Shown one piece after another: positions 8,969 through 59,666 of a stretch of 64,000 nucleotides of DNA. A model generated the notes under the pieces. That model was not told where the DNA came from. It did not search any database and saw only the letters and a list, made by a program, of their open reading frames with translations. The stretch is from Bacteroidota bacterium (GTDB taxonomy: Bacteria; Bacteroidota; Bacteroidia; Chitinophagales; Saprospiraceae): the NCBI GenBank assembly GCA_029567325.1, contig JAKQLF010000181.1, forward strand, positions 1 through 64,000. The letters run 5' to 3'. The stretch's first letter is position 1. Each line of letters starts with the position of its first letter. The position numbers were made by a program, and so were the translations under genes.

Positions 8969-9019
8969 AAAAAGAGCTTTAATTTGCATCGAGTTTGGTG
9001 TTTAATTAAAGCTCTTTTT
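8969..9019. terminator. Bidirectional-looking terminator hairpin
   Basis: A perfect 16-bp stem, 8969-8984 with 9004-9019, with a 19-base loop; A-run on the left and T-run on the right. It should end the fasciclin transcript. Its right arm stops only four bases before the start codon proposed for the next gene. Confidence 0.75.
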
Positions 9020-9023
9020 AATT

Positions 9024-9785: not shown

Positions 9786-9836
9786 ATTAAAATTTTATTT
9801 TCGCCCTTCCTAATTACCTAATTAATCACGAAACCA

Positions 9837-10601
9837 ATGGCCGTAAAACGCTGCAAGCTTTTAATTTGTCTGGTGATTGCTATGTCCTCAATCAATCATT
9901 TATCAGGTCAAATCATTAATATCGAACAAAAAAGAATCATCACCGATACGGTTGGTTTTGCTGGTGATATCGGCTTATCTGTAAATGCCTCTCGCTATAG
10001 TGAATCATTTTTTGCTTTCAATTCCAATGGTCATATCCAGTTTAAATCACATCGACATTTGATTCTTGCTTTCATCAATTATTCTTTGGTCAATGTTTCT
10101 GGAAAGGAGTTCAACAGGAATGGTTTTTCACATTTGCGCTACAACTATGAAGTGAATGATTTATTGCGTCTGGAAGCATTCACTCAGTTACAATTGAATG
10201 CACTTTTGAACATCAAAAACCGCAATCTCAATGGCTTTGGCATCAGGTTAAAGCTTTCTCAATATGAAAATGCAAAGTTTTACTTTGGGCTTGCCTATAT
10301 GTATGAAAGAGAAGCACTTGAGCAGGAAAAAAATCTCAACATTGACAATAGGATGAGTTCTTATTTCACTTTTACCTTAACCCCACAAGACAATGTGAAA
10401 CTGTCGAATACATCTTATGTCCAGCCATTATTCAATAATTTTAGTGATTTCAGGTTTAGCAATGATCTGGTATTGTCTTTTCAAATCACTAAAAATTTGA
10501 GTTTTGTTACCAATTTTCATTTTTTATATGATGCTAAGCCTCCTGTTGGTATACCAACCAATAACTATGAAGTGACCAATGGCTTGTCTTTTGCGTTTTG
10601 A
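9837..10601 (+). CDS. DUF481-type outer-membrane beta-barrel protein
   Basis: A 254-aa protein with a signal peptide (KLLICLVIAMSSINHLSG, cleavage near residue 25) and a repeating pattern of two-residue periodic beta strands typical of small outer-membrane barrels. The order of strands (a middle section NFSHLRYNYEVNDLLRLEAFTQLQLNALLNI-like in character, then paired strands to the Phe C-terminus) resembles DUF481/YdiY proteins, though it was recognised by eye only. The last residue is Phe, the usual end for a BAM-assembled barrel. It may share a transcript with the glycosyltransferase gene 51 bp upstream. Function unknown. Confidence 0.65.
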   Translation: MAVKRCKLLICLVIAMSSINHLSGQIINIEQKRIITDTVGFAGDIGLSVNASRYSESFFAFNSNGHIQFKSHRHLILAFINYSLVNVSGKEFNRNGFSHLRYNYEVNDLLRLEAFTQLQLNALLNIKNRNLNGFGIRLKLSQYENAKFYFGLAYMYEREALEQEKNLNIDNRMSSYFTFTLTPQDNVKLSNTSYVQPLFNNFSDFRFSNDLVLSFQITKNLSFVTNFHFLYDAKPPVGIPTNNYEVTNGLSFAF

Positions 10602-22531: not shown

Positions 22532-23311
22532 CTATACGATAATCACTTCCACACCCGCGTCGATCAACCTTTTTTTGTCTTCAGGAGAAATATTGCTGTC
22601 TGTAATGACTTTGTCTATATTGCTTAAGTCACAAATAAAAGCCAAACTCCTTTTGACAAACTTACTGGAGTCGGCCAATACAATCACTTCTCTCGATATT
22701 TGGATCATAATCTCATTGAGTCGGGCTTCCTCCATATTTGGAGTGTAAATACCCTGTTTGGTATCAAAACCATCTACACCCAAGAAAACCTTATCTACAT
22801 TGAAGTTGAGTAGATTTTTTTCTGCTAAAGGACCTACCAAAGACAAAGAATTCTTTCGCAAGTAACCACCTGGAATGATCAGATTGATATTTGGATTTGA
22901 GCTTAGTAAATTGGTGATGTTTAATGCATTGGTGATGACGGTGAGGTCTTGTAAATCTGGCAGATATCTTACTAACTCAGCTGTTGTTGAGCCAGAATCA
23001 ATAATAATAGTGTCGGATTCTGAAACATATTGGGCTGCGCGATTTCCAATTTTATTCTTTTCCTTAAAGTTTATTTTGCTTTTGTCACCCAGTCTCTGGT
23101 CTACCGCGACATTGTTTTCCAATTTTAAGGCACCACCTCTTACTCTTATGAGTACCTTTTTTTGCTCCAATTGGTCCAAGTCATTTCTGATGGTAACCTC
23201 GCTTACATCAAATTTTTGACTCAATTCAGGAACATGCAATTCTCCCTTTTCTGAGAGTAATTCCAAAATTTCTTTTCTTCTTCCTACAGTGGTATCGCTT
23301 TTTTTAGCCAT
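22532..23311 (-). CDS. DeoR-family transcriptional regulator (AgaR/GlpR-like) of the catabolic island
   Basis: A 259-aa regulator when started at the ATG 23311 (MAKKSDTTVGRRKEI...). An upstream in-frame start would add 48 residues of no DeoR character, so it is rejected. The N-terminal winged helix (about 10-65) carries the family signature VPELSQKFDVSEVTIRNDL, and the DeoRC effector domain (75-250) has the DSGSTTAEL phosphosugar-binding loop. DeoR proteins sense sugar phosphates such as tagatose or fructose phosphates. It is divergent from the agaS operon, and AgaR-like operator sequences lie at four promoters in the next 33 kb, so it is the obvious candidate controller of that island. Confidence 0.92.
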   Translation of the reverse strand: MAKKSDTTVGRRKEILELLSEKGELHVPELSQKFDVSEVTIRNDLDQLEQKKVLIRVRGGALKLENNVAVDQRLGDKSKINFKEKNKIGNRAAQYVSESDTIIIDSGSTTAELVRYLPDLQDLTVITNALNITNLLSSNPNINLIIPGGYLRKNSLSLVGPLAEKNLLNFNVDKVFLGVDGFDTKQGIYTPNMEEARLNEIMIQISREVIVLADSSKFVKRSLAFICDLSNIDKVITDSNISPEDKKRLIDAGVEVIIV

Positions 23312-23424
23312 ATGGTAATGTTGATGTTGTTGTAAGTATTTTCTAATAAATGTGGCTACGCTGACAAAGTTCAAATGATTACTCTTTTGGCCATTATTTA
23401 TTGTGTCACAGGTTCTCAAAACGA

Positions 23425-23474
23425 TGGTCAACAAATAGATCAGGATGTTTTTCAATGACCTGATCTAATGACCA
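23425..23474. promoter_or_regulatory. Nested hairpin in the leader of the regulator gene
   Basis: An outer TGGTCA/TGACCA pair (23425-23430 with 23469-23474) encloses a perfect 9-bp inner pair TAGATCAGG/CCTGATCTA (23436-23444 with 23459-23467). It lies 114-163 bases upstream of the regulator start and downstream of its likely promoter, so it would be in the 5' leader. It could be a binding site or a leader structure. Confidence 0.4.
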
Positions 23475-23600
23475 CTCTTATTATTGTTTTGGAACTTTGC
23501 GAAACAAGATTAAAGCCAATTTCAACGCCTTTGCAAGTTCCTTTTTCCCAAATCATTCCTTAGAAAAGTGTTCTCAAAAGTAAAATACAAAGACATGCGG

Positions 23601-23608
23601 CAAAGATA
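23601..23608 (-). promoter_or_regulatory. Candidate -7 box for the regulator gene
   Basis: On the minus strand it reads TATCTTTG, a full match to TAnnTTTG. It is 290 bases upstream of the start codon, which would give a long leader that includes the nested hairpin. Confidence 0.4.
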
Positions 23609-23694
23609 TTACAATTACATAGATAAGGAAACAATACTTAGTACATAATGAAAGTTTAACCATGCTTTTACTTATTATAAAATTAAACTAAAAT

Positions 23695-23718
23695 CAAAAA
23701 GAAATAAAACGAAAGATA
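23695..23718 (+). promoter_or_regulatory. AgaR-like operator, site 1 (agaS operon)
   Basis: The sequence contains GAAATAAAACGAAAGATA (23701-23718). Against the reverse complement of the E. coli AgaR consensus as I remember it (core RAAAYRAAAYGAAAKKYW, with MMAARN before it), 23 of 24 positions agree. It ends 28 bases before the -7 box of the agaS operon. Confidence 0.65.
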
Positions 23719-23746
23719 AAATTCCTAAAAATAACTTACTAAACCT

Positions 23747-23754
23747 TATCTTTG
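23747..23754 (+). promoter_or_regulatory. -7 box of the agaS operon
   Basis: TATCTTTG, a full match to TAnnTTTG, 107 bases upstream of agaS. No clear TTG -33 box is seen, as expected for a regulated promoter. Confidence 0.55.
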
Positions 23755-23861
23755 TATTGATTATTAATTTATTTTTGACAAGAAATAATGAAACTAAAAG
23801 TAAAAAATGAGTTTCATTTTCGGATTGACACATTATTACTCAATTGTTTATACGGTAATTT

Positions 23862-25025
23862 ATGAAGTATCTAGGGGTTGAAAGTGAACAATTACATAAG
23901 TTGGGGGGGTATCATACAGCTGTTGAAATTGCGCAACAACCAGAAATTTGGAAAAAAATATGGGAAATGGTTCAAACAACCAGTCCAGACATTGTCCAAT
24001 ATTTGGATGAAGCTTTAAAACACTCAAAAAGAATCATTCTTACAGGTGCGGGGACAAGCGCATTTATTGGAATTACACTCAAAAGCCTTTTTCAAACAAA
24101 GTTTGGTTTGATTACTGAGGCGATTCCTACCACTGATTTGGTGACTCATCCTGATCATTATTTTTTAAGAAACACGCCGACACTTTTGATCTCTTTTGCC
24201 CGGTCTGGCAATAGTCCAGAGAGTGCAGCTGCGGTAGTGCTTGCCAATGAGTGTTGCGATCATGTCTACCATCTCATCATTACTTGCAATATTCATGGAG
24301 CATTGGCCAAAGTTTCTTCTACCCAACCCATGAAGGTTATTTTTCTGCCAGAAGAATCCAATGACCAAAGCTTAGCCATGACGAGCAGTTATACAAGTAT
24401 GTTGTTGACTGGTCTTTTGATAGCCAGAATCCACGAACTTCCTGCCTTGGCAGATAAATTGAGCAATTTGTGTGTTTGTGCTCAAGATTTTTTAGATCAC
24501 AACTGTCACCAGTTGGAAGAAATTGCAAAACTTGATTTTAAAAGGATTGTCTTTTTGGGATCAGGGCCATTTTTTGGAGCCGCAACCGAATCTAGTCTTA
24601 AAATTCAAGAACTGACAGATGGTGAGGTTATTTCAAAATTTGAAACGTATTTGGGATTTAGGCACGGCCCAAAATCAGTCATTGATAGCAAAACCATCAT
24701 CGTTTATTTTCTTTCATCGCAAAATGAACATGCACTCAAATACGAATTGGATCTGATCAATTCCATGAAGATGGGCACGCGGCCGCTTTTGGAAATTGGC
24801 ATCTCAGAAAGTAGTAAGGATAGCCTCAGCATTTTCCAAAGTTATTCTTTTGCTTCTGAAAAATTGGTAGCCGATGATTATTTAATGGCCATTGCTTATG
24901 TATTATTTGCCCAAGTTTTGGGGTTTTATAAATCCATAGAATTACAGTTGAAACCAGATAGCCCATCTGTCAATAATGACATTGCCCGGGTGGTGGAAGG
25001 GGTTCATATTTATACCTTAATTTAG
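23862..25025 (+). CDS. agaS: AgaS-type SIS-domain amino-sugar-phosphate deaminase/isomerase
   Basis: A 387-aa protein with two sugar isomerase (SIS) domains, about 40-190 and 215-360. It carries TGAGTSAF (61-68), SFARSGNSPES (111-121), FLGSGPFFGAATES and FRHGPKSVI, which are diagnostic for AgaS/AgaS-like isomerases rather than GlmS. AgaS converts galactosamine-6-phosphate to tagatose-6-phosphate with release of ammonia. The following PfkB kinase and class II aldolase give exactly the next two steps, so the assignment fits context. First gene of the operon, under operator site 1. Confidence 0.9.
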   Translation: MKYLGVESEQLHKLGGYHTAVEIAQQPEIWKKIWEMVQTTSPDIVQYLDEALKHSKRIILTGAGTSAFIGITLKSLFQTKFGLITEAIPTTDLVTHPDHYFLRNTPTLLISFARSGNSPESAAAVVLANECCDHVYHLIITCNIHGALAKVSSTQPMKVIFLPEESNDQSLAMTSSYTSMLLTGLLIARIHELPALADKLSNLCVCAQDFLDHNCHQLEEIAKLDFKRIVFLGSGPFFGAATESSLKIQELTDGEVISKFETYLGFRHGPKSVIDSKTIIVYFLSSQNEHALKYELDLINSMKMGTRPLLEIGISESSKDSLSIFQSYSFASEKLVADDYLMAIAYVLFAQVLGFYKSIELQLKPDSPSVNNDIARVVEGVHIYTLI

Positions 25026-25063
25026 GGTGGTCAATCAATTAAGAAATCATAAACTAAAGCTTT

Positions 25064-26029
25064 ATGTTCAAAGAATTTGATGTTGTCGTTGTCGGAGAAT
25101 TGAATGTGGATATCATCATGGATCAGATAGAAGGTCTTCCAGCAATTGGCAAAGAAATAATTGCAGAAAAGATGAATTTCACCCTTGGCAGTAGCACCGC
25201 TATTTTTGCCAATAACATTGCTACTTTGGGTGCGAGAGTATGTTTTGTTGGGAAATTGGGACTCGATTCATTTGGTTATTTTATAAAAGAAACTCTTGAT
25301 AAAAAGGGGATCGATACCTCACAAATTGTCATGTCTTCAGAACTCAAAACTGGCGCTACCATTGTTTTGAATTTTGATGAAGATAGGGCAAATGTCACTT
25401 TTCCTGGTGCCATGAATGACCTTTCTTTATCTGATATAAAGGATGAATGTTTAGCAAAGGCCCGACACATACACATCAGCTCTATTTTTCTGCAAAAATC
25501 ATTACTTCCAGGACTTTCTAAACTGCTTGCCAAAGCAAAAGCCTTGGGATTGACTACCTCTATTGATCCTCAGTGGGATCCTCAGGAAAGATGGGATATT
25601 GATATGGATTTGTTGATGTCCTTGATTGATGTTTTTTTGCCAAATGCTGCGGAGTTGATCAATCTGACCCACGCCAAAGATCTAGGCGAAGCATTAGATA
25701 AAATCAAAAAATATGATCAAACGACCATAGTGATCAAAAATGGCCATGAAGGAGCTTTGCTTTGGGATGGTAAAATATTGATCCACCAACCAGTTTTTTC
25801 AAATCAAAATGTAATCGATGCGATAGGTGCTGGAGATAGTTTCGATGCTGGATATATCAAAAAATTTCTAGAGGGTTGTTCGGCGAAGGAATGTCTGGAA
25901 TATGGATCGCTGATGGGAGCCATCAACACCACAGGTTATGGAGGAACTTCTTCTTTCTCAAGCTTAGAAAAAGTCAATCAAATTGCTCAATCAGTATTTA
26001 ATTATTCAGACTATGTTACTGAAGGATAA
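25064..26029 (+). CDS. PfkB-family sugar (phosphate) kinase, probable tagatose-6-phosphate kinase
   Basis: A 321-aa ribokinase-fold kinase. It begins with VVVVGELNVDIIM, has the Gly-rich LGSSTAIFANNIATLGA (near 45-61) and the anion-hole/catalytic box IGAGDSFDAGY, with Asp258 as base. PfkB enzymes phosphorylate fructose-1-P, tagatose-6-P, KDG and others. Because it lies between AgaS and a class II aldolase, the likely reaction is tagatose-6-phosphate to tagatose-1,6-bisphosphate. Its 3' end overlaps the aldolase start by 17 bases, so the two are translationally coupled. Confidence 0.88.
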   Translation: MFKEFDVVVVGELNVDIIMDQIEGLPAIGKEIIAEKMNFTLGSSTAIFANNIATLGARVCFVGKLGLDSFGYFIKETLDKKGIDTSQIVMSSELKTGATIVLNFDEDRANVTFPGAMNDLSLSDIKDECLAKARHIHISSIFLQKSLLPGLSKLLAKAKALGLTTSIDPQWDPQERWDIDMDLLMSLIDVFLPNAAELINLTHAKDLGEALDKIKKYDQTTIVIKNGHEGALLWDGKILIHQPVFSNQNVIDAIGAGDSFDAGYIKKFLEGCSAKECLEYGSLMGAINTTGYGGTSSFSSLEKVNQIAQSVFNYSDYVTEG

Positions 26030-26834
26030 ACTTGCACAATTCAATCAAAGTGGTCATGCAATTCTGGCAGCCAATTTTTACAATTTTGAGACGCTCACAG
26101 GCATATTGAATGCCGTTGGAGAAACCTCTCAAGACATTATTTTACAGGTGTCAGAAGGTACTATTCAATATTTGGGTTTGGAGATGACGGTGGACATGGT
26201 CAGAGCCGCCCTCAAACAACACGAGATCAACGGATGGTTGCATTTGGACCATGGCAGTTCACTTGCAATTGTTCAAAAGTGTTTGGATGCAGGATTTGAT
26301 TCTGTGATGATAGATGCCAGTGAAAAACAATTGGAGGAAAATATAAACCTTACCAGGCAAGTTGTCAAGGTGGCAGAGGCTTATAAAGCAAATGTGGAAG
26401 CCGAACTTGGTTACATTGCCAAATTGGGCCAAAATCAAAGTGGGAATATCTACACTCAACCAGAAGAAGCAAAAAATTTTGCGGAAGCAACGGGCATCAA
26501 CGCACTGGCAGTTGCAGTAGGAACTGCCCATGGTTTTTACAAAGATCCGCCCCATTTGCAACTTGATTTGATATCAAGGATTCATGAAATCACACCTGCT
26601 GCTTTGGTATTGCATGGTGCTTCTGGTGTTCCAGCTGACCAATTGAAAGTAGCCATAAAAAGGGGCATTTCCAAAATCAATGTGGCCACAGATTCGAAAA
26701 ATGCATTCATGCAATCCTTGAAAGTCACCTTAAATAAAACTGATGAAATAGACCTCAGGTTGGTTTTCCCAAAGGCAACTCAGGCAGTGACTGATCTGAT
26801 AGCCCAAAAGTTGACCATTATATCGAGCGCTTAA
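26013..26834 (+). CDS. Class II (zinc) bisphosphate aldolase, probable tagatose-1,6-bisphosphate aldolase (KbaY/GatY-like)
   Basis: A 273-aa aldolase when started at ATG 26013 (MLLKDKLAQF...); a TTG at 25983 would add ten residues and is not needed. It shows AANFYNFETL (19-28), the zinc and catalytic block GWLHLDHGSS (Asp79, His80), VEAELGYIAKLGQ (Glu131), VGTAHGFY (His173), LHGASGV (His201) and the phosphate-binding INVATDS. These are the class II FBA/TBP aldolase motifs; the length is close to KbaY. It would split tagatose-1,6-bisphosphate to glyceraldehyde-3-phosphate and DHAP. Fructose bisphosphate is an alternative substrate. Confidence 0.88.
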   Translation: MLLKDKLAQFNQSGHAILAANFYNFETLTGILNAVGETSQDIILQVSEGTIQYLGLEMTVDMVRAALKQHEINGWLHLDHGSSLAIVQKCLDAGFDSVMIDASEKQLEENINLTRQVVKVAEAYKANVEAELGYIAKLGQNQSGNIYTQPEEAKNFAEATGINALAVAVGTAHGFYKDPPHLQLDLISRIHEITPAALVLHGASGVPADQLKVAIKRGISKINVATDSKNAFMQSLKVTLNKTDEIDLRLVFPKATQAVTDLIAQKLTIISSA

Positions 26835-36221: not shown

Positions 36222-36480
36222 TGAATTTTTTTCTTAACGCTCCCTTACTTTAAAAATACTATGCAAAAAAACTCACTTTTGGCTTTTCTTCATTGTTTTT
36301 TGCTGCACCTGCACCGATTCATTGATATGAGGTTACTTATAGTTAGAACAGTTTTTTGCACTTAACGTATTTTTAAAGTTCGGTAGCTAAAAAAAATAAG
36401 GCCGATTCAAAACTGATCGAGGAGCTCAGGAAACAAGCACGATGAATAGTGTCCTCGAGTCTCTTGTTAAAAATTGCGAA

Positions 36481-36896
36481 ATTGCCCCGCAGTGAATTGT
36501 TGGCGCAGCCAATTGTGTCCGCATGACATTGAACTCTATTGAACTCCCATTGAAATGATTGAACTCCATTGAACTCCCATTGCGCTGCAGGCATTGAATT
36601 CACATTGCGTCCGCATGACATTGCCCCACACGGAATTGCTGTCGCAGCCATTTGCGTCCGAAAGACATTGAACACTGCTTCGAGCCACAAGCTTCGGGTT
36701 TCGAGCCATGTGTGAGTTTTGCCCCACACGGAATTGCCCATTGCGCCGCAGGCATTGAATTCCCATTGCGTCCGAAGGACATTGCCCCGCAGGGAATTGA
36801 TGGCGCAGCCAATTGCGCCCGAAGGACATTGAACTCTATTGAACTCCCATTGAAATGATTGAACTCCATTGAACTCCCATTGCACTGCAGGCATTG
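36481..36896. repeat. Mosaic repeat field with a 116-bp direct repeat 300 bp apart
   Basis: Bases 36481-36596 recur at 36781-36896 with about ten differences; the first half recurs a third time, diverged, at about 36620-36673. The words are CATTGAACTC, ATTGCGTCCGAAGGACATTG and GCATTGAATTC-like strings, richer in GC than the surroundings. Long open frames occur on the minus strand in all three phases here, but they only echo the repeat (QWEFN, NSLRGN, MPAAQ over and over), so I do not call genes. The field ends 33 bases from the stop codon of the next gene. Confidence 0.8.
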
Positions 36897-36928
36897 CTCC
36901 CCTTTCAAAAGCAGGGAGGAATTGAATA

Positions 36929-38755
36929 TCATTTAACCAAAGTAAAATTACCTTTTGACACTTCTTTCACACCATTGCTGAATGTGAACTCGACCAAATA
37001 AGTATACACACCTGTTTCTGCCGGGTGCCCGTTGAAGTAACCATCCCAAGAAAATTCTTGTGTTGAGCGATAGACGTTGTTGCCAAATCTGTCATAGATC
37101 AGCAACAAAGAGATTTCAGATTCTGCTCCTTGGTCCAAAAGGATGGAAAATAAGTTGTTATCATCTTTAGATTGCAGGGAAATAATGTTGGGTGTGTAAG
37201 CTTTTGTCACACGTCGATTGACCATTACACTCTTCTCATCTGAGGCTTCGCAACCAAATTCATTGATTGCGACCAAACTAAAGGTAGTTTCTTCACTAGG
37301 ATTTGCCGATGTTTCCGGGCACGTTGGACAAGATACAAAATTAGCTGGTTGCCACTCCAAACTTTCAATTGCATCGGTAGTGATGATAGAAAGTAAGAGG
37401 GTATCGCCAAGATTGATGGTGGTATCGGGACCTATATCGACACGGAATTCAGGAGGTGAAATGATTGCAAAATCCATTGAGTCGGCACAACCATGTACAT
37501 CCTTAGCAATAATGGTATAATTTCCTGGAGGGAAGTTTGTGCCATTCACTACATCAAACTGGGCATTCATTACTTCATATTTGAATGGCGGGAAATTTCC
37601 GCTCGTCATCACTTCCAATTTACCATCTTCACCAAAACATTTTGGTTGTACAATCATTGGAGAAATGGCAATGGCAGGATTTCCCAAAACAAATAGATGT
37701 TGTTCGATGATGGAGTCACATCCGTTTATATTTGAATTGAATAAAGTATCCAAATAAGTGCCTGAAGCGGTCAAGGTATTATTTCCAAACATCAATGAAT
37801 TACCAAAGCAAATCGTGTCATATTTTTGAATGATTTGTTGTAAGACCTGTACGCTGACCACATCCGAAGTAATGAAACATTTGGTATTGGAAAAATTCAA
37901 GCTGTCATTGGAGACTATATAGCGATAGTAATGATTGCCTACATTTAATTGATCCACAGAGAAACTTTTTTCATCGCTCAGGTATTCCGACCAATTGATA
38001 CTATCTGTTGAATATTGCCACTTGATGGCCCAATTTACTGGTATATCTGCGGAAATAGTGATGGCAGAATCAGTAGGGCAAGTGTATTTATTGTCAAAGT
38101 CTGAGGAGGAGATGCGGTTGCCTGGCACACATGGCCTGAAGGAAATATTATCTATGGCCAAATCATTGCCTGCACCTCCGGGAGCATTGTTTCTTATTGA
38201 TAAGGTGACACTTGTCTGATTTAGACCAGTTGTAAAAGAAAGGCCATATTTTTCCCAGTGCTCTGATCTTGGTACATTACCTGTTGAATAAACTTCCAAT
38301 GAATCAAGATAAAAAGTGAGATTTGGATCAATGTGGTCTGTGACATCTCTGGCAATGAGATTGACTACTTCAACAGAGAATTCATATAAAGTATTGGGGC
38401 AAAGACCAGTAACCAATTGTTCATAAAAAACGCTTGGTTCGTACGACGCATTGAAAAGCAAAAAATATCCCAAGCTATCTCCACCCGCATCAATCACATT
38501 GATCCACGTTTGCGGAGGAAAGAGATCTTCTACATTTTGTGTAATGGTGTATTGACCATCATTTGGCAAGTATGGCAGGTATTGATATCCAGGAGCAATC
38601 ATTGGATCATTTTCTAAAGTCAGCGTATTGCCACGACCCAGAGAACCATTCAGAAAAATATTTTCTCCTAAGTTCCCAGTGCACAATGAATCTATTTGGG
38701 CCGTGAGCCCATTCATATTCAGAAGTAACATGAAAAACAAAATGCATGGACGCAT
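36929..38755 (-). CDS. Surface protein with gliding-motility-type (CHU_C) T9SS sorting domain
   Basis: A 608-aa secreted protein. After the signal peptide (LFFMLLLNMNGLTAQ) comes a carbohydrate-binding-like beta sandwich (about 20-215; ends AIDNISFRPC), an Ig-like region with a pair of cysteines, a SprB-type repeat (about 355-430: PKCFGEDGKLEVMTSG ... GCADSMDF), and the C-terminal CHU_C domain (AYTPNIISL ... YDRFGNNVYRSTQEFSWDGYFNG ... GVYTYLVEF), the type B signal of the type IX secretion system. It should be exported to the cell surface and may bind glycans. Single gene beside the repeat field. Confidence 0.9.
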   Translation of the reverse strand: MRPCILFFMLLLNMNGLTAQIDSLCTGNLGENIFLNGSLGRGNTLTLENDPMIAPGYQYLPYLPNDGQYTITQNVEDLFPPQTWINVIDAGGDSLGYFLLFNASYEPSVFYEQLVTGLCPNTLYEFSVEVVNLIARDVTDHIDPNLTFYLDSLEVYSTGNVPRSEHWEKYGLSFTTGLNQTSVTLSIRNNAPGGAGNDLAIDNISFRPCVPGNRISSSDFDNKYTCPTDSAITISADIPVNWAIKWQYSTDSINWSEYLSDEKSFSVDQLNVGNHYYRYIVSNDSLNFSNTKCFITSDVVSVQVLQQIIQKYDTICFGNSLMFGNNTLTASGTYLDTLFNSNINGCDSIIEQHLFVLGNPAIAISPMIVQPKCFGEDGKLEVMTSGNFPPFKYEVMNAQFDVVNGTNFPPGNYTIIAKDVHGCADSMDFAIISPPEFRVDIGPDTTINLGDTLLLSIITTDAIESLEWQPANFVSCPTCPETSANPSEETTFSLVAINEFGCEASDEKSVMVNRRVTKAYTPNIISLQSKDDNNLFSILLDQGAESEISLLLIYDRFGNNVYRSTQEFSWDGYFNGHPAETGVYTYLVEFTFSNGVKEVSKGNFTLVK

Positions 38756-38880: not shown

Positions 38881-40119
38881 TTAATTTCCCAAGATTTTCA
38901 CGGCCACATATGCCATCAAACCAGTGCTGTGGATCAAGGCGTCTTCATCAATTTTAAAATCGGGAGTATGCAGACCAGATTGTATGCCTTTGTCAACATT
39001 ACCTACGCCCAATAAATAAAAGCAGGCATCTGCATTCTGTGAGTAATAGGCAAAATCTTCAGCAGCCATCCACATGTCTTGTTCCAAAACCTGATCGGTG
39101 CCCAGGTAGGATTGTGCAATTTCCATTACTCTTCCAGTCAAGTCTTCTGCGTTGAATAAACAAGGATATCCTCTGGTAATTTTCACCTCGCAAGTTCCGC
39201 CCATACTCTCCGCAATAGACTTGGCCATGAATTCAATTTTATCCAAAGAGAAGGTTCTCCACGATTCATTCATAGCTCTAAAAGTACCCTCCATATACAC
39301 CTCGTCTGGTATGACATTGATGGCGCCATTAGCGATAACTTTACCAAATGATAACACACTTGGTTCCGTAGGATCCACCATGCGACTCACGACTTGTTGT
39401 AGGCTTACAATGATGTGTGAAGCAATCAAAACGGGATCTATGAGCATATGAGGTTGGGCACCATGACCTCCCTTTCCTTTCACAGTCATGAGGATTTCGT
39501 CCATAGATGCCATAAACTTACCTTTTCTAGTGGCGATTTTACCGCATGGCAGGGATGGCATTACATGTTGACCGATGACAAATTCGGGTTTTGGGTTGTC
39601 GAGGACTCCTTCATTGATCATGATGCTTGCACCGCCGGGTAATTTTTCTTCACCTGGTTGGAAAATAAATTTGATGGTTCCACCAAAGTCTGCTTTTATG
39701 GATTGCAAAATTTCGATGACACCCAATAATGAAGCGGTATGGGCATCGTGGCCACAAGCGTGCATGACACCTTCACTTTCGGATTTATAAGGTAAATCGT
39801 TTGTTTCGACAATTGGTAATGCATCAATATCAGCTCTTAGGGCAATGATGCGATCGGAGGGTTTATCCCCAGATAATATTGCAACAATCCCAGTATTGGC
39901 CATGGCTTGCCATGAAACGCCCATTTCATTGAGACGGGCTTTGATGTAAGCAGAAGTTTGAAATTCTTGAAAGGACAATTCTGGATGCTGGTGTAAATGT
40001 CTGCGGTTTTGGATTACGTGGGTCCAAATTTCTTTGGATTTTGCTTTGATTTTTTCTTGAAGCACTTTTTCAATTTTTTCTTGATTGATAAAGTTACAAA
40101 CAAAAATATGATCAATCAA
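38881..40119 (-). CDS. M20-family amidohydrolase (IAA-amino-acid/hippurate hydrolase-like)
   Basis: A 412-aa metal-dependent amidohydrolase. Motifs: HPELSFQEF (45-53), ALRADIDALPI (93-103), the metal block MHACGHDAHTA (Cys122, His124), FQPGEEKLPGG (Glu pair), and the dimerisation domain around MVDPTEPSVLSFGKV. M20D enzymes remove acyl groups from N-acyl amino compounds; here, last in an operon with NagB-like and sugar genes, it may deacylate an N-acyl amino sugar. The start ATG is not certain: MIDHIFVCNFINQEKI may be too long by ~12 residues. It is 64 bp after the NagB-like gene. Confidence 0.9.
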   Translation of the reverse strand: MIDHIFVCNFINQEKIEKVLQEKIKAKSKEIWTHVIQNRRHLHQHPELSFQEFQTSAYIKARLNEMGVSWQAMANTGIVAILSGDKPSDRIIALRADIDALPIVETNDLPYKSESEGVMHACGHDAHTASLLGVIEILQSIKADFGGTIKFIFQPGEEKLPGGASIMINEGVLDNPKPEFVIGQHVMPSLPCGKIATRKGKFMASMDEILMTVKGKGGHGAQPHMLIDPVLIASHIIVSLQQVVSRMVDPTEPSVLSFGKVIANGAINVIPDEVYMEGTFRAMNESWRTFSLDKIEFMAKSIAESMGGTCEVKITRGYPCLFNAEDLTGRVMEIAQSYLGTDQVLEQDMWMAAEDFAYYSQNADACFYLLGVGNVDKGIQSGLHTPDFKIDEDALIHSTGLMAYVAVKILGN

Positions 40120-40183: not shown

Positions 40184-40942
40184 TCAATAATTGGGGATTA
40201 AACTAGACGATTCCCCATCCAAAAATAAATGACAATCGCGGTGCAACCTCAACATGGTAGAAGGATATTGGGGGTCAATGGCTTGGAAAATAGTATTGTA
40301 AACCGGTTCTGCCTTTCTGAAATCTGGTATGGATGCCACAATGGCCGTTGACTTGAGCATGTGTTTGATGGACATACTCACCGCATGAGTTGGTACTGCA
40401 TCCAAGTCTGGAAACCAACCTTCTTTGACTTGCTGCGTTCTGCAAGCTTCGTCTAGTTGTACTTTTATAAATGGAACATCGGTTTCAAAATTTGCAGGTG
40501 GGTCGTTGAATGCCAAATGCCCATTTTCGCCGATACCGATCAAAGCTAAATCTATAGGATATTTTGCAATCTCCTGATTGAGATAGTCCAGTTCTGCGTC
40601 GACATCTTCATTACCATTGATTAAGTGGGTTTTTTTGAGAGGTGGTACAAAATCCAGAAATCGTTCTGTCAAAAATTTTCGGAAACTTGCCTTGTGATCT
40701 GCTGAAATACCAATGTATTCATCCAAATGAAACATCACCACTTTTGACCAATCAATTTCCTGATCCGCAATCAATACCTTGAGTGTTTCATATTGGGCAG
40801 TGCCAGTAGCCATGATGATATTGGCTTGTCCTTTTTTCATGATGGCTTTTTTGATATAATCAGCAGCACATTTTCCAGCATTTGCACCCAATGATGTTTT
40901 TACACCACAGTTATACACCTGCAGAGATAGTTTTGTAATCAT
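40184..40942 (-). CDS. Glucosamine-6-phosphate deaminase-like protein (NagB family)
   Basis: A 252-aa protein of the NagB/6-phosphogluconolactonase fold. It has NIIMATGTAQYETL, FHLDEYIGIS with the base Asp74, IGIGENGHLAFNDPP with His142, and the C-terminal TMLRLHRDCHLFLD. NagB turns glucosamine-6-phosphate into fructose-6-phosphate and ammonia. One position differs from E. coli NagB: the Asp of 'NDGH' is Asn140 here (ENGH), a variant seen in NagB-like proteins, so the substrate may differ. It starts 11 bp after the Nramp-like gene. Confidence 0.85.
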   Translation of the reverse strand: MITKLSLQVYNCGVKTSLGANAGKCAADYIKKAIMKKGQANIIMATGTAQYETLKVLIADQEIDWSKVVMFHLDEYIGISADHKASFRKFLTERFLDFVPPLKKTHLINGNEDVDAELDYLNQEIAKYPIDLALIGIGENGHLAFNDPPANFETDVPFIKVQLDEACRTQQVKEGWFPDLDAVPTHAVSMSIKHMLKSTAIVASIPDFRKAEPVYNTIFQAIDPQYPSTMLRLHRDCHLFLDGESSSLIPNY

Positions 40943-40953
40943 AAAAATTTATT

Positions 40954-42192
40954 TTATAGTTTAAGAAGTTCTACGATGGCAAACCAAGTAGTCACAAAAG
41001 AAAAAAGTATCACCGCCCACAATCCTATTTTTAGCTTCATACTGGCAGCATATTCTTTCATTTTGGATCTATTGGAGATCATGATGGCTGCAGGAATGGC
41101 TACAGCAGGTAAAATGCATGCTTGAAAAGCCTGAGAAAAAATCATCAACGCGGGAGGTCTTTGTGTAAGGAAAACAGAACCAAAGGCAAACAAAAATCCA
41201 ATTAAAATCAATATTCTAAAGAGCGGTGATTTGAGGTCTCTGGGCTTTCCAGTATAATCAGAGATCAACCAAGGCGCAATTAGAACTATTGGGAAAATGG
41301 TTGATAGACCAGCACTGGCAACTCCAATTATAAAAACAAAAGCAGCTACTTTGCCACCTAGAGGTTCGAAAAGATGAACCATATCGATTGTGTTACTAAT
41401 AGAAATACCTTTTGGATGTAAGGTTCCCGCGGCCACAGCCATGATCATGGCACTCAGGAAAAGCATCATCGAAGCCGAAACAAAAGAATCCTTTTTTTCA
41501 AGGGGAATGTCATTTTTGGTCCATCCTTTTTCTAATACAACTGTACTTCTCACGATGAATACAGCTGCCGAACAAGTGGTTCCAGCAATCGCTGCAATAA
41601 GTCCAAAACTTCCCGGTTGGAAATCCAAGTTGGGAATCATGCCTGAAAAAATTTCTTTTAAATCAGGTTTCAATAAGATGAAAACAACAAAAAAACTGAA
41701 TGCCATCAAGATCACGAATACAGTCAATACTTTTTCGAATTGCTTGTATTTACCCTTCCAGATTAAATAGTACATGGCACAAGAAAGTACAAAGATGATA
41801 CCGCCTCTGCTGAAGGTAGACCCCGTGGCCATTCTGAGACCTTCCTGAACTAAATCAGCTACAATGCCCATGACTCCTATGATGGCCAATAATTCTCCAA
41901 TGACGATGGCAATTAATATATACAATGCCAAAATCCAACCAAATTTAAATTCAGTTTTTACTGCTTGCAGCGCAGTTTTTCCAGTCACTAAAGCCATTCT
42001 ACCATAAGTAACCATGAGGATATAAGTAAAAATACAAGAAAGGATGAGCGCCCAGAATAAAGACATGCCGTGGTTGGCTCCAGTTTGTGCCATGGTGGTC
42101 ACCGATCCTGTACCGATATTGTACCCAATCAGAAATAAACCAGGACCTACAGCTGCAAGGCCGATAGCAAATTTTTTGTTTAAAGAACTCAT
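40954..42192 (-). CDS. Nramp-superfamily transporter without the canonical metal-binding motifs
   Basis: A 412-aa membrane protein with 11 likely helices. The opening AVGPGLFLIGYNIGTGS (14-30) is the Nramp TM1 position, but the metal-binding DPGN is replaced by a GTGS-type stretch, and the TM6 MPH motif is not found (IAGTTCSAAVFIVRSTVVL instead). So transport of Mn2+/Fe2+ is unlikely. It lies in an operon with an ADP-ribosylglycohydrolase-like lipoprotein, a NagB-like enzyme and an amidohydrolase, so import of an organic or amine substrate is a reasonable inference. Annotation as a divalent metal transporter would be by homology only. Confidence 0.75.
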   Translation of the reverse strand: MSSLNKKFAIGLAAVGPGLFLIGYNIGTGSVTTMAQTGANHGMSLFWALILSCIFTYILMVTYGRMALVTGKTALQAVKTEFKFGWILALYILIAIVIGELLAIIGVMGIVADLVQEGLRMATGSTFSRGGIIFVLSCAMYYLIWKGKYKQFEKVLTVFVILMAFSFFVVFILLKPDLKEIFSGMIPNLDFQPGSFGLIAAIAGTTCSAAVFIVRSTVVLEKGWTKNDIPLEKKDSFVSASMMLFLSAMIMAVAAGTLHPKGISISNTIDMVHLFEPLGGKVAAFVFIIGVASAGLSTIFPIVLIAPWLISDYTGKPRDLKSPLFRILILIGFLFAFGSVFLTQRPPALMIFSQAFQACILPAVAIPAAIMISNRSKMKEYAASMKLKIGLWAVILFSFVTTWFAIVELLKL

Positions 42193-42239: not shown

Positions 42240-43574
42240 TTATTCTATTTTTGATTTAGGAATCAACCATACATTTTTGGTTGTGTCCAATTTTCCTTTC
42301 ATCATTTGTACCACAACCTTATCTACGATTTTAAGTCCTTTGTCAGCCATTTGATCAAAAGTATCAATGCCGTTATTTGGAAATCCTATCCGCGTGCGGT
42401 GGATATTGTACCTATTGGAAAACTTCATTCCAAATGCTTCTTCAATTTTCTTTTTACCCATCATAAAACCTAAAAGTCCGCCCCATGTAGCAGTTGGATT
42501 ATCAGAATCCCAACCGCATAATGATCCAATCTTTATGGTTTCTTTGATTTCACCTTCACCATAAAACAGACTGACAAGACTTGCACCGAAATTAATTCCT
42601 GCAGCGATGCAACCATAGCAAATACTATCCTTTTTGGACCATTCATATCCATCCTCATTGCGAATCTGATATTTTTGGTGCAAAGAATCTCTGGCTGCCT
42701 CCCATGGTATTTTTTGTTGATAAAGGCTCTTGATGTATTGGTACATTTTAGCAGGATATTGGGTGGGCGCCAATTGCTTTGAAGCCTGCTCTGCCATCCA
42801 GACCGTTTGTTCTTTGAGATTTGTGAAGGTGCTATCAAAGGATGCCAGCGCATGCATTGTCACGTAAAACTCAGCAATATCAATCGCATTCCCATCAGCA
42901 CTTATTCTGATTGGCAAATGACTCAGTTTGAGCGCAATTTCAGGATGTAAAGGTGCGTACAATCCAAAAATTTCAGTGGTCAGTTGAGCGTCAATCATTT
43001 CATAAAAGTTATTGAAAGCCGCTTGACCGGTTTGAGGAGGCAATATTCCTTTCTGCATTAAATCAAAAGCTGTTTGGTTGGAAACCCACAGAAAATTTTC
43101 CTCTTCTTTTTTGATATGAGTTAGCCAGCCATTTTTGATTTGTTCTGGGCTCAAAACCACATCTTCACTTTTGGTCATTAATTCCTGATAGATGTATTCT
43201 ATATCGGTATCGTCATCGGAACCCCAAATACTATCTTGTCCTAGCAGCACAAAATCGATTACTTTTTGATCCTTAGTACCTCCCCAAATGCTTGGAATAT
43301 CAGCTTTTCCCCAGTCTGCTCTTGTATAAAAGCCTCCACCTAGCCCATTTTTCATAGAGTATCCTATTTTGTCCATTTCTGTGGTGAGACCCGTCCAGTT
43401 TGCAATAGATTCTGCAAGCCAAAAACCTTCTAATTTATCTGAGTAGACCGAGCGATCAATTTGGTAATAATGTTCATCTTCTTGATCCGAAATATTAGAC
43501 TTTTTATTCGAAGTCGAATTGCAAGTAATAAAGAAAATCAACAAAATGAAAAGTGATGGGAAATACAGTTTCAA
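42240..43574 (-). CDS. ADP-ribosylglycohydrolase-family lipoprotein
   Basis: A 444-aa protein with a lipoprotein signal (FFITCNS, Cys18). The ADP-ribosylglycohydrolase fold is marked by the metal motif SDDDTDIEYIY (119-129) and a second motif near the C-terminus, CGWDSDNPTATWGGLLG (around 351-366), where Asp-Ser-Asp is the second metal site. The classic GD near the N-terminus is not kept. The family removes ADP-ribose from proteins or hydrolyses other N- or O-glycosides; a lipid-anchored member in a glycan locus is more likely a glycosidase. First gene of the minus-strand operon; promoter shared with the BNR gene. Confidence 0.85.
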   Translation of the reverse strand: MKLYFPSLFILLIFFITCNSTSNKKSNISDQEDEHYYQIDRSVYSDKLEGFWLAESIANWTGLTTEMDKIGYSMKNGLGGGFYTRADWGKADIPSIWGGTKDQKVIDFVLLGQDSIWGSDDDTDIEYIYQELMTKSEDVVLSPEQIKNGWLTHIKKEEENFLWVSNQTAFDLMQKGILPPQTGQAAFNNFYEMIDAQLTTEIFGLYAPLHPEIALKLSHLPIRISADGNAIDIAEFYVTMHALASFDSTFTNLKEQTVWMAEQASKQLAPTQYPAKMYQYIKSLYQQKIPWEAARDSLHQKYQIRNEDGYEWSKKDSICYGCIAAGINFGASLVSLFYGEGEIKETIKIGSLCGWDSDNPTATWGGLLGFMMGKKKIEEAFGMKFSNRYNIHRTRIGFPNNGIDTFDQMADKGLKIVDKVVVQMMKGKLDTTKNVWLIPKSKIE

Positions 43575-46262: not shown

Positions 46263-48548
46263 TTGATTTCAAATAATCCAACATTCAAGCAATTTCAGAC
46301 GAAGCTCATAGATTGTTTACATCATCAATTGGGCTTTGTCTCTAGCATTTATTTACACAAAGGTTTTCCTGTTTTAACATGGGTAGCTATTTTACTTTTT
46401 CCAGCTCAATGTTTGAGTGCTCAAAAGGCGCCAGGAAACAATAGGTTTGATCCCATTGAAATACGCAAAGACCATCCAAGAATTTGGGTTGATGCAGATA
46501 AACTCACGCAGTTGAAGCAAAAATTCAAGGGGAAAAATGCGGATCAAATTCAAGAAATTGCAGGACCTTCTGTCATTGGATTGGCTTTAACTTATTTGGT
46601 TTCAGGTGATGCAACTTACGGCCAAAAAGCCATAGATAAAGTCATAGGGACAAGGGTTGATTCTGGTTCTGTTTTTTATGATTTAGATACCAAAGAGGGC
46701 CGAAGTAAAACGAGCTCCATTCAGGCCAATCTGGCAGATATTGCCATTTGTTATGACTGGTGTTTTCCATTGTTGAAAAAGGAGGAAAAGGAATCCCTTA
46801 CGGAGGAAATGTTGGCAGATATGAAGAAAAGAATCAGTTTCAAAAGGTCGTGGAGGTCTTTTCACAATTCTATGTATGCAAGTGCATGGCCTGTTACCGC
46901 AGCAACTCTTGCCCTTTATCATGAAGATCCCTACGCAAAGTCTTCTTGGGAATTTTTGAAACCAGAGTTAGAAGATGCCATGAGAACATTTGACAATGTC
47001 TTCCCTGATGGTGAATGGGCAGAAGGCTTTGATTACAACCGACATTCTACCTACCATGCCCTCAGGATTTTTCTTGCTATAAAATCTGCCACAGGTTTTG
47101 ATGTTATAAGTGATTCGCCGCACATGAAAAATACGGGCCAATATATTTTGTACAGTTTTAAACCCAATGGCCTTGCTTTGCCTAGCGATGACAATGATTG
47201 GCCATACATTGGAGACTGGGAACACGTTGCCTTGCTCATGTTGAATGAAACTTTTAAGGACGGTTTTAACCAATATTTTATCAACCATTGTCCTTTTGAA
47301 AGATTCAAACTTGAGCCAGATAAAAAATATGCAAATGCGCTTTGGTATAACCCTGCTATTCCCGAAAAACCATTGAGTAAATTGCCATTGAATAGGTTGT
47401 TTCAAGGCAAAGGGCTCTTGATCGGACGTAGCGCTTGGGACTGGGACGAAGCCGACAAAAAATCTAAAGCTACTTGGTTTACCTTCCATTGTGGCGATTA
47501 CCTGGGCGATCACGTGCACAATGACATCAACAATTTGGAAATTTACCATCAAGGATCATTGGCCATTGATGCCGGTAGATATGATGATGATTGGACAGCA
47601 GTAATTGAAAATCCAGATGCAATCACCAAATCACAATTTTTTAATTATTACCGCAGATCCATTGCGCACAATACTGTTTTGGTCTATGATCCCAATGAAG
47701 AGATGTCACAACAAATCATCAATGATGGAGGACAAAAGGATTTATTGAGGCCAAATGGCAAGTTTAGTCCCAGGAATGTGCCAGAAGATTATGACCAGGG
47801 AAATTTTCCTTCTGATGATGGCATCGGTACTTGCGATTGGGTAAATAGGGGGGACCGTTGGGAAACTGGGAATATCCTCGCTTATCAATCCACCCCTGAG
47901 TTTACGTACATCAGTGGAGATGGCGCTAAAGCTTACCACGAAAATAAGGTCGATCAGTTTGTAAGGCAAGTGGTTTTTGTACAACCCGATGTGTTCATCG
48001 TATTTGATAAAGTGGTTTCTGACGATGCTTCATTCAAGAAAACATGGTTGTTACATGCCATTGAGGAACCCAAAATCAATAAAAACAACATTCAGATTGA
48101 ACACCAACAGGGCCGATTAACCAATTTTACCTTATTGCCCAAATCGGCTTCCACACAAATCATTGGCGGGATTGGAAACGAATGTATGGTCGATTCGGTC
48201 TCTTTTAAATTCGGATTGAATTCACATTATGACCCAACAGCTTTGCACTATGGCGAAGAAGCTGGTGCATGGCGTGTAGAGTTGAGTCCCCAAAAAGCAT
48301 CTAAAGAAGACTTTTTTCTCAATGTTATGCATGTTTCTGGTAAAAAGGACAAAGCAAACCTGAAGGTGGAATTGGTTAACGAAGATTCGGATTATGTCAC
48401 GGTAAAGTTGACAACAAAAGGCAAAAATATTTTCGTCACCTTGTCAAAATCGAATGGTCCTGGTACGCTGGAATTCAAAAAGGGGAATAAAAGCATTTTT
48501 AAATCAACCTTAAAGCATGAGGTCATTTTGGAAGAGGGAAAGTTTTGA
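46263..48548 (+). CDS. Heparinase II/III-family polysaccharide lyase
   Basis: Up to 761 aa. The start is not certain: TTG at 46263 gives a long leader; TTG at 46329 would be closer to the signal segment VLTWVAILLFPAQCLSAQ. An alpha/alpha toroid (about 60-400: RKDHPRIWVDADKLTQLKQKF, DIAICYDWCFPLL, YASAWPVTAATLALYHEDP) is followed by the heparinase II/III C-terminal domain with GDYLGDHVHNDINNLEIY (about 416-433) and SIAHNTVLVYDP. Such enzymes cut uronic-acid-containing glycans (heparin, alginate, chondroitin-like) by beta-elimination. It is 19 bp after the BNR gene. Confidence 0.9.
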   Translation: MISNNPTFKQFQTKLIDCLHHQLGFVSSIYLHKGFPVLTWVAILLFPAQCLSAQKAPGNNRFDPIEIRKDHPRIWVDADKLTQLKQKFKGKNADQIQEIAGPSVIGLALTYLVSGDATYGQKAIDKVIGTRVDSGSVFYDLDTKEGRSKTSSIQANLADIAICYDWCFPLLKKEEKESLTEEMLADMKKRISFKRSWRSFHNSMYASAWPVTAATLALYHEDPYAKSSWEFLKPELEDAMRTFDNVFPDGEWAEGFDYNRHSTYHALRIFLAIKSATGFDVISDSPHMKNTGQYILYSFKPNGLALPSDDNDWPYIGDWEHVALLMLNETFKDGFNQYFINHCPFERFKLEPDKKYANALWYNPAIPEKPLSKLPLNRLFQGKGLLIGRSAWDWDEADKKSKATWFTFHCGDYLGDHVHNDINNLEIYHQGSLAIDAGRYDDDWTAVIENPDAITKSQFFNYYRRSIAHNTVLVYDPNEEMSQQIINDGGQKDLLRPNGKFSPRNVPEDYDQGNFPSDDGIGTCDWVNRGDRWETGNILAYQSTPEFTYISGDGAKAYHENKVDQFVRQVVFVQPDVFIVFDKVVSDDASFKKTWLLHAIEEPKINKNNIQIEHQQGRLTNFTLLPKSASTQIIGGIGNECMVDSVSFKFGLNSHYDPTALHYGEEAGAWRVELSPQKASKEDFFLNVMHVSGKKDKANLKVELVNEDSDYVTVKLTTKGKNIFVTLSKSNGPGTLEFKKGNKSIFKSTLKHEVILEEGKF

Positions 48549-48622: not shown

Positions 48623-50101
48623 ATGAAAAACGCACTTTTTATCACTTTCTTATTTTTGAACTTAGTATTGACTGCTCAACAAGTAAATAATCGTATTCGC
48701 GTAAAGCCAAAAGAAATTCATGATGTGCTCACCAATCCAGGAATTGGATTTACCACTTTTCAAAGATTCAACGGAGATACCCTCAATCCAGGGCCATGGT
48801 GGACAGAAGGCTATCTTATTGATTATCAAACCTTTGACGGAAATCTTAAAAATGAAGGATATCCACAAACATCGATCTCTTACTTCAGAGTGAATTGGAA
48901 ATTTATGGAACCTGAGCAGGGAAAATATAATTGGGAAATGATCGACAAAGCCCTCAAAACCGCAGCTGAGCGCAACCAAACTTTGATGTTGAGAATTTCT
49001 CCATTTGAAGAAGGTGATAAAGATGTCCCACATTGGTATCGTAAAATGGTTGGCCCGGAAAAAACCGAAGCTACAGAGAAGTGGAGGGTTGATCCTGAAG
49101 ATGCCAGATATTTACAATATTTTGGAGGAATGATCAAGGCATTGGGAGATCGGTATGACGGTCACCCTGGACTAGAAGCTGTAGATATTTCCATCACTGG
49201 TTTTTGGGGAGAGGGTGATGGTTTTCATCTGTTGAGTAATGCCACACGCATTGGTTTATTGAATTGTTATTTAGACCATTTCAAGAAGACGGGTCTGATT
49301 TATCAACCCCTCAACGGTGATGCTCCTGAACCAGGTCTATTGGTCAAAGGTACAAAGATCGCAGCCAGTTGGCCTGATGGTAGTAATAATGGAACAGGTG
49401 ATGATATGCGTCCAGTAGGATATCGTTGTGATTGTTTGGGCGACCTCAGCACGGTGATGTGGGAAGAAAAGCAGTGGAGTCATATGGGCGATATTTATCC
49501 GAGGGATATAGTGAAAAGTGGTATGTATGAAGCTTGGAAAAAGTCCCATCTCTCTTTTGAAATTTGCTACACCTTCCAATATTGGCTCGACTCGCTCAAA
49601 TATACGGATAAGGAAATTGATTTCATTTTTGGCGAAGCACTCAAATGGCACATCAGTTCATTCAATGCCAAAAGTTCTGCGGTGCCTGAGGTTTGGAAAT
49701 CAAAGGTTGACCAATGGCTCAATAAAATGGGTTATAGATATGTTGTTCGCAGGTTTGAATATCCATCAACTGTGAAAAGAAATGGTAAACTAGATTTTAC
49801 TTCATTATGGGAAAATGTAGGAGTTGCTCCTATTTACAAACCTTATCGCTTTGCCTTAAGATTGAAAAACAAACAACATGAGCAAGTTTTAGTCACTTCT
49901 GCCAACCTATTGACGTGGCTTCCTGGTGATATTGTGCACGAAGAATCTGTCTATTTACCATTGAATATGCCCGCTGGTAAATACCAGTTGGATATTGCTT
50001 TGATAGACCCAGTTTACCTTACGCCAAAAGTGAAAATTGCGATTGATGGTAAACAAGAAGATGATTGGTATAAAATGGGAGAGATAGTCGTCGCACCCTG
50101 A
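48623..50101 (+). CDS. DUF4832 protein with GH-like TIM barrel
   Basis: A 492-aa secreted protein (signal peptide to about residue 19, LFLNLVLTAQQ). Residues 30-340 look like a glycoside hydrolase barrel: NPGIGFTTFQRF, YFRVNWKFMEPEQGKYNWEMIDKAL in character (GH42-like), VDISITGFWGEGDGFHLL with a candidate acid Glu, and FEICYTFQYW. The C-terminal 110 residues form a DUF4832 beta domain (DFTSLWENVGVAPIYKPY). DUF4832 proteins occur in glycan-use loci but few have known activity. Third gene of the operon, 74 bp after the lyase gene. Confidence 0.85.
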   Translation: MKNALFITFLFLNLVLTAQQVNNRIRVKPKEIHDVLTNPGIGFTTFQRFNGDTLNPGPWWTEGYLIDYQTFDGNLKNEGYPQTSISYFRVNWKFMEPEQGKYNWEMIDKALKTAAERNQTLMLRISPFEEGDKDVPHWYRKMVGPEKTEATEKWRVDPEDARYLQYFGGMIKALGDRYDGHPGLEAVDISITGFWGEGDGFHLLSNATRIGLLNCYLDHFKKTGLIYQPLNGDAPEPGLLVKGTKIAASWPDGSNNGTGDDMRPVGYRCDCLGDLSTVMWEEKQWSHMGDIYPRDIVKSGMYEAWKKSHLSFEICYTFQYWLDSLKYTDKEIDFIFGEALKWHISSFNAKSSAVPEVWKSKVDQWLNKMGYRYVVRRFEYPSTVKRNGKLDFTSLWENVGVAPIYKPYRFALRLKNKQHEQVLVTSANLLTWLPGDIVHEESVYLPLNMPAGKYQLDIALIDPVYLTPKVKIAIDGKQEDDWYKMGEIVVAP

Positions 50102-59638: not shown

Positions 59639-59666
59639 TTTAAATACAAATCAAAAATAAATTGTG

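Follow-up and report, generated by a model that had tools for sequence, protein, structure and literature searches.

The window, that is, the whole stretch of 64,000 nucleotides of a Saprospiraceae contig analysed here, carries on its minus strand a gene with an ATG start (40954..42192) that encodes a Nramp-related transporter of 412 residues, identified from PF01566 and its predicted fold and belonging to a group that we refer to as the GTGS clade. The gene belongs to a minus-strand run of four, separated by gaps of 47, 11 and 64 nt. The run opens with an ADP-ribosylglycohydrolase-like protein (42240..43574; PF03747) that has a lipobox-like N-terminus, and the transporter is followed by a NagB-like deaminase/isomerase of 252 residues (40184..40942; PF01182) and an M20 amidohydrolase that is not NagA-like (38881..40119; PF01546, with TIGR01891 above its cut-off), neither of which has a signal peptide that could be seen. 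These neighbours are those named in an earlier interpretation of this DNA that used the letters alone (the sequence-only reading). The NagB-like protein falls short of the cut-offs set for the curated nagB models. The window's own run contains no exported NagA beside the transporter, and the M20 enzyme is a candidate for a deacylase that replaces the NagA-like enzyme found in relatives. About 14 kb from the transporter gene lies a galactosamine-type catabolic module (22532..26834), assigned from profile scores and comprising an AgaR-like repressor on the minus strand and an AgaS-family isomerase, a PfkB kinase and a class II aldolase on the plus strand; the repressor reaches 282 with the AgaR model (cut-off 260), and the isomerase scores 362 bits for the AgaS family, under the cut-off of 529. 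This module, together with a SusC/SusD pair at 56396-61139, gives the region a galactosamine-type flavour. On the opposite strand, heparinase II/III-like (46263-48548) and DUF4832 (48623-50101) proteins adjoin the operon and suggest a glycan containing both uronate and hexosamine. At 36373-36932, overlapping minus-strand ORFs made of short repeated words (QWEFN, NGVQ) resemble a repeat array more than a gene.

PF01566 (Nramp) matches the transporter with 200.4 bits (cut-off 29.8; E 5.8e-59) over profile positions 1-356 of 357, so that the protein consists of a full-length domain without any extra one. An AlphaFold2 model built on an alignment of 69 sequences (mean pLDDT 85.3, pTM 0.86) gave the Nramp/LeuT fold, and its top matches in a fold comparison are Nramp-family structures, including DraNramp (Z 44.4 over 380 residues, rmsd 2.7) and EleNRMT (Z 42.6-43.0). 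YcsG (9a52) was matched via its fold (Z 41.1) and missed in PDB sequence searches, which returned nothing nearer than EleNRMT. Because the best matches all belong to the family and those outside it are far lower (KimA, Z 30.8; AdiC, Z 29.3), the fold is secure as a prediction, and the structure prediction that the sequence-only reading had proposed as a check bears out the Nramp scaffold.

In an alignment with E. coli MntH and relatives, the window protein has GTGS in TM1 (residues 27-30; 42103..42114, minus strand), where metal Nramps have DPGN, and SAA in TM6 (residues 208-210; 41563..41571, minus strand), where they have MPH. TM1 of the window protein reads IGYNIGTGSVTT and TM6 reads AGTTCSAAVFI; from MntH to the window protein, D34 corresponds to G27, P35 to T28, G36 to G29 and N37 to S30 in TM1, and M209 to S208, P210 to A209 and H211 to A210 in TM6. 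The canonical DPGN is equally missing from the relatives: GTGS is present in 87 of 87 aligned family members (L021 and L022, which also have GTGS, lie outside this alignment), and the metal ligands Asp, Asn, Met and His are all absent from each of the 87. The column of the MntH Met is occupied by S in 71, G in 10 and A in 6, and that of the His by A in 75, V in 11 and P in 1. Both motif losses described in the sequence-only reading thus extend to the aligned family. GTGS is presumably under selection, since it is invariant in all 87, and the idea of an eroded metal Nramp was ruled out by the constancy of the replacement motif.

In a quick maximum-likelihood tree of 64 rows, the 36 GTGS rows grouped in a single clade with SH-aLRT 100, to the exclusion of canonical Nramps, the NRMT-like rows and a group with GPGT in TM1; the phylogeny that had been suggested for this subgroup therefore resolves it as a separate clade. 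The tree program printed a long-branch warning, for which reason the order of branching among these groups is left unclaimed. Within the GTGS clade, supported subclades comprise 19 rows (that of the window), 10 rows and 6 rows, plus one loose row. Membership in NRMT was ruled out by the position in the tree and by the motifs, and membership in the GPGT 'orphan' group by the lack of GPGT in TM1, VPYN in TM6 and Y in TM3. In the alignment of family members, all 81 proteins of subclades one and two have Glu at position 100 in TM3 (Glu100 in the window protein; 41893..41895, minus strand), all 6 of the third subclade have Gln, and the outside rows have Asn (14/14 in the GPGT group, 3/3 NRMT-like). 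Position 25 in TM1 is Asn in the first two subclades and Thr in the third, position 208 in TM6 holds Ser in the first, Gly in the second and Ala in the third, and Arg215 is constant in all 87 aligned members.

Relatives of the transporter are widespread, with at least 576 encoding stretches in GTDB genomes, counted by tblastn match (E up to 1e-3) irrespective of the GTGS motif. The best 80 of these, hereafter the near relatives, share at least 60% identity and come chiefly from Bacteroidota, with others from Chlorobiota, KSB1, Calditrichota, Planctomycetota, Alphaproteobacteria and Neomarinimicrobiota bins; a sample of 395 genomes of the phylum holds 22 relatives of the gene with E < 1e-60. 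The host genome itself (97% complete) has one further PF01566 gene, which is of the GPGT type, so that the search revealed no canonical DPGN Nramp there.

The gene neighbourhoods of these relatives link the transporter to amino-sugar enzymes. With genes called by ORF length alone, a NagA-like deacetylase stands immediately upstream in 60 and a NagB-like protein immediately downstream in 52 of the best 80 of at least 576 relatives. NagA or NagB is found within the surrounding stretch in 68 of these 80 loci, which are mutually related so that the counts represent non-independent events, and in 10 of 20 divergent loci (neither being seen in the other 10), versus none of 20 control loci around other PF01566 proteins of the same phylum. 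The neighbourhood survey that had been advised for the GTGS subgroup has in this way revealed a linkage to NagA/NagB. Among the 12 near loci with neither gene, five have nearly 10 kb on each side and the remaining seven end short on at least one side. A representative NagA scores above the curated nagA cut-off (248 versus 226 bits). As to the controls, 12 of the 19 proteins identified belong to the GPGT group, and one locus (L139) yielded no PF01566 protein; two others (L147 and L149, from genomes G057 and G269) encode canonical DPGN Nramps of about 625 aa with a long additional stretch.

The operons further include a pair of Gfo/Idh oxidoreductases whose N-termini are Tat-like; a LacI regulator is present in 21 loci and a 3-keto-disaccharide hydrolase of the DUF1080 type in 16. 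When 124 neighbours of 22 near relatives were sorted by family, Gfo/Idh led with 26, ahead of amidohydrolase (21) and Glucosamine_iso (19). The 25 families listed for these neighbours, out of 129, include no sugar kinase, and the usual 6-phosphate route of NagA and NagB is therefore not visibly closed there. Proteins with a GH109 domain (the alpha-N-acetylgalactosaminidase family) are encoded in L034, adjoining the transporter, in L057, adjoining NagB, and in L118. The last locus, from Petrimonas, also has a Tat-type protein of 438 aa (8628-9941 of that locus), without a Pfam match at 1e-5, directly before the transporter, where NagA usually stands. Loci of the second subclade carry GH20, PF07555 NAGidase, GH88 and NagB. 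In the third subclade, alginate-lyase motifs occur in three of six loci (L044, L047 and L049), each together with a PfkB kinase closest to KDG-kinase models, so that the label 'alginate-type' refers to at least 3/6 loci; the family scan of this subclade also returned SDR, KDPG aldolase and a chondroitinase-B-type lyase, and MFS proteins are present as well (3 of 63 neighbours in set A2 match MFS_1).

A survey that took NagB, and not the transporter, as its starting point searched the same 395 genomes and gave 35 hits, spread over 32 of them. Within ten genes of NagB, the closest transporter was the GTGS protein at 11 of these loci, a NagP-like MFS permease at 11 and an SSS sodium:solute symporter (SGLT-type) at 6; the rest had another MFS protein (2), a TRAP permease (1) or no transporter (4), the reference sequences of each class coming from within that survey. 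Two of the 11 MFS proteins were scanned. Both matched NagP_SO3503 (E 1.8e-116 and 1.1e-112) below the strict cut-off of that model, and both pass the cut-off of gluP (glucose/galactose transporter). For example, L163 and L164 have the MFS gene between NagA and NagB and two Gfo genes past NagA, with the order of transcription reversed relative to the GTGS operons. With 35 NagB in 395 genomes and stretches of 20 kb, about 0.0004 NagB per transporter would be expected by chance, versus NagB beside 11 of 21 transporters examined from the phylum sample (20 loci and the window). The GTGS protein hence occupies the permease slot of NagA/NagB operons, and, as a comparative argument, this swap with sugar-transporter families is the strongest evidence bearing on its probable function.

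The type of transporter also matches the predicted location of NagA. Signal peptides were called by hydrophobicity and by eye; of 84 NagA hits in the loci, 56 were tabulated with a hydrophobicity script and the other 28 read by eye. A predicted export signal, in the form of a hydrophobic segment on an N-terminal extension, is present in 61 of the 62 readable NagA beside a GTGS protein, compared with 0 of 16 beside NagP (8), SSS (7) or another MFS (1). The 66 NagA on the GTGS side divide into 44 tabulated and 17 read by eye with a signal, one without and four unreadable fragments; in L106, the NagA beside the GTGS transporter (305 aa) is without a signal. On the other side, NagA of L168 and L177 were flagged as exported by the hydrophobicity rule, flags which we take as false because the hydrophobic segment is the first core strand; those of L164 and L171 are long untrimmed ORFs overlapping the upstream MFS gene, and that of L163 was over-trimmed by the script, its untrimmed ORF being too short for any signal. 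Where NagA has no transporter nearby, it bears a signal in L160 and lacks one in L170; L160 (G158:C40) encodes an exported NagA and NagB with no adjacent transporter, and the GTGS gene of that genome lies on another contig. The signal-bearing NagA beside GTGS proteins fall into two lineages, Sec-type and Tat-type. Those of L034, L116 and L121 have Tat-type N-termini beside GTGS and belong to a NagA lineage that elsewhere is NagP-linked and signal-free. The simplest reading of this pattern is that NagP and SSS transporters import an N-acetyl sugar that is deacetylated inside the cell, whereas the GTGS protein would import the product of periplasmic deacetylation. A converse case appears in excerpts of Price et al. 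2022 (PMC9007349), where NagX is proposed to acetylate periplasmic glucosamine for import by NagP.

The NagB-like proteins differ from E. coli NagB at several positions. Across 90 aligned sequences, D72, H143 and K208 of E. coli NagB are kept, and in all 90 D141 is replaced by N and E148 by D, with Q in the R172 column, whose placement may be off by one or two residues as lengths differ there. R172 is the residue that we take to bind phosphate in E. coli NagB. These alterations imply that the substrate may differ from glucosamine-6-phosphate and could possibly be an unphosphorylated sugar.

Several known systems resemble the GTGS clade in part. NRMT shares with it PF01566, the absence of canonical DPGN and MPH, and the fold (EleNRMT, PDB 7QIA; Z 42.6, 390 residues, rmsd 2.8, 22% identity); however, EleNRMT and the NRMT-like rows retain an acidic TM1 site (NDAGG) and have APW in TM6, whereas the GTGS proteins have GTGS and S/G/A at these places, form a separate clade and lie in sugar loci rather than being connected with magnesium. 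The Slc11 'orphan outgroup' of Cellier is likewise of PF01566 without the metal motif. From the Y/N substitutions given in part of PMC10606218, we infer that it corresponds to our GPGT...VPYN group with Tyr in TM3, which differs from the GTGS clade in its TM1, TM3 and TM6 motifs, in its position in the tree and in the lack of NagA/NagB in the 20 controls. Also Nramp-related are MntG/YcsG and the G-motif groups that Ray et al. 2026 describe, compared here from the text and figure legends of PMC12873925; MntG shares with the GTGS protein its place in a catabolic operon. B. subtilis YcsG/MntG, however, is a reported Mn importer that raises cellular Mn and is encoded in a 5-oxoproline operon (excerpts of PMC10448178); A. 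baumannii MumT, encoded in a urea operon, is likewise reported to import Mn and raise its cellular level (excerpts of PMC5050338). NagP, the N-acetylglucosamine MFS permease, likewise stands between NagA and NagB in related operons, but its fold family is unrelated to Nramp, its NagA partners are free of export signals and the order of transcription is reversed in L163 and L164. The SSS family has a LeuT-type fold. Its members, nearest transporters in 6 of the 35 NagB loci, differ in family (best match TIGR00813, under cut-off) and in their signal-free NagA partners.

Together, the linkage to NagA/NagB, the slot shared with NagP-type MFS and SSS transporters and the loss of all metal ligands make an organic substrate, namely an amino sugar, the best fit. 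We consider it likely that the GTGS protein is an inner-membrane importer of amino sugars (hexosamine-type, free or N-acylated, with galactosamine/GalNAc and glucosamine/GlcNAc as candidates) on an Nramp/LeuT scaffold that would not move metal, a proposal whose substrate class and direction we infer from gene context. The separate clade, the pairing of transporter type with NagA export, the GH109-type proteins, the glycosidases of the second subclade and the window's AgaR/AgaS module also speak for it. Counting against it are the Mn roles reported for MntG and MumT, the lack of an exported NagA beside the window's own transporter, the loci in which neither NagA nor NagB is seen (12 of 80 near, 10 of 20 divergent), the exceptions L160 and L106, the MFS proteins of the third subclade and the missing sugar kinase among the neighbour families listed. 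The organic substrate put forward in the sequence-only reading is well supported by this comparative evidence. In near relatives, exported Gfo/Idh enzymes (some of GH109), a DUF1080-type hydrolase and the exported NagA-like deacetylase would release an amino sugar into the periplasm; the GTGS transporter would then take it over the inner membrane for deamination by the cytoplasmic NagB-like enzyme, in what seems the most plausible order of steps. In the case of the window, since the M20 enzyme has no visible signal, the N-acylated sugar itself may be imported.

The protein might still be a divalent-metal importer with a changed site that provides the metalloenzymes of the sugar pathway with Mn2+ or Mg2+, a role proposed for MumT and MntG. 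The main reason for keeping this reading is that these two Nramp-related proteins, reported as Mn importers, have Mn phenotypes and lie in catabolic operons, and EleNRMT is described as moving Mg2+ and Mn2+ without DPGN/MPH in part of PMC12873925. Yet none of the 87 aligned GTGS proteins retains a side-chain ligand at the TM1/TM6 site, and the clade stands apart from NRMT and shares its operon slot with sugar transporters. Rfam gave no match at the gathering score in positions 30000-54000 of the window or in seven related loci, so that no known metal riboswitch, including the magnesium one, is present there; some NRMTs also have none. Nor does any metal-homeostasis family figure among the first 25 neighbour families listed in each of three neighbour scans, and a constant proximity to metal genes, which the sequence-only reading had named as contrary to its proposal, was accordingly not seen among them. 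Metal import by the GTGS protein therefore appears unlikely to us.

The cargo could also be another organic intermediate, such as a 3-keto sugar, a uronate or a short oligosaccharide, and in line with this are the DUF1080 protein (named 3-keto-disaccharide hydrolase) and the Gfo/Idh enzymes of the operon, GH88 in the second subclade and the alginate-type genes of the third, which occur in at least 3 of its 6 loci. However, the most constant neighbours in the main subclade are NagA and NagB, with NagA exported, which favours an amino sugar; we regard these other cargoes as unlikely. It is very improbable that the protein is a sensor or accessory component of the operon instead of a transporter. 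Such a role has a precedent in plant EIN2, a signalling protein of the Nramp family (abstract of PMC12290401), but the GTGS protein is a complete transporter domain with nothing added, it takes the slot of known transporters, and in 72 of the 80 near loci the same directional run encodes no second protein with at least six predicted TM segments that could serve as the transporter.

On the amino-sugar reading, an acidic residue 100 would suit an amino sugar, as a neutral one would a uronate. There is also a broader proposal, which we put forward tentatively and consider somewhat doubtful as a whole: a Nramp clade would transport sugars, with GTGS and Glu100 forming a site for a positively charged free hexosamine that comes from the exported periplasmic NagA and is used without a 6-kinase; replacement of Glu100 by Gln and of Asn25 by Thr would have retuned the scaffold to uronates in the alginate-type loci; and non-metal transport might be ancestral to metal transport by Nramps. 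The last point draws on the description, in part of PMC12873925, of metal-motif-free Nramp-related proteins as paraphyletic to canonical Nramps, so that non-metal transport could be the older state. The term 'recruited' in the sequence-only reading accordingly fares well as to the pairing of a Nramp scaffold with an organic substrate, and the direction of change that it implies may be reversed.

Nramp-related groups without the metal motif are already published and mostly uncharacterized. Outgroups lacking the metal site are described in excerpts of Shin et al. 2014 (PMC4072509) and of Cellier 2022 and 2023 (PMC9606685, PMC10606218), and Ray, Berry and Gaudet 2026 state, in a portion of PMC12873925, that groups besides NRMT-like and G-motif 3 are entirely uncharacterized. 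Our searches of open-licence papers found no sugar substrate or role for any Nramp-type protein. The one Nramp match in the polysaccharide literature searched is a figure label, 'Nramp, metal-ion transporter', in the alginolytic systems of Alteromonas sp. 76-1 (PMC6431674). The family is treated as one of metal transporters, and the window protein, the one scored, is labelled accordingly by NF037982 ('Nramp family divalent metal transporter'; 67 versus a cut-off of 50); other members of the clade would probably receive the same label. If GTGS proteins do move amino sugars, this label would be wrong for the whole clade, one transport step of bacterial glycan breakdown would be accounted for, and concrete proteins would be at hand for studying how a LeuT-fold site shifts from an organic solute to a metal ion. 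In one relative, from Pseudozobellia thermophila (L068), the GTGS transporter stands in tandem with a second Nramp-related protein that has FGPGSLT near its N-terminus.
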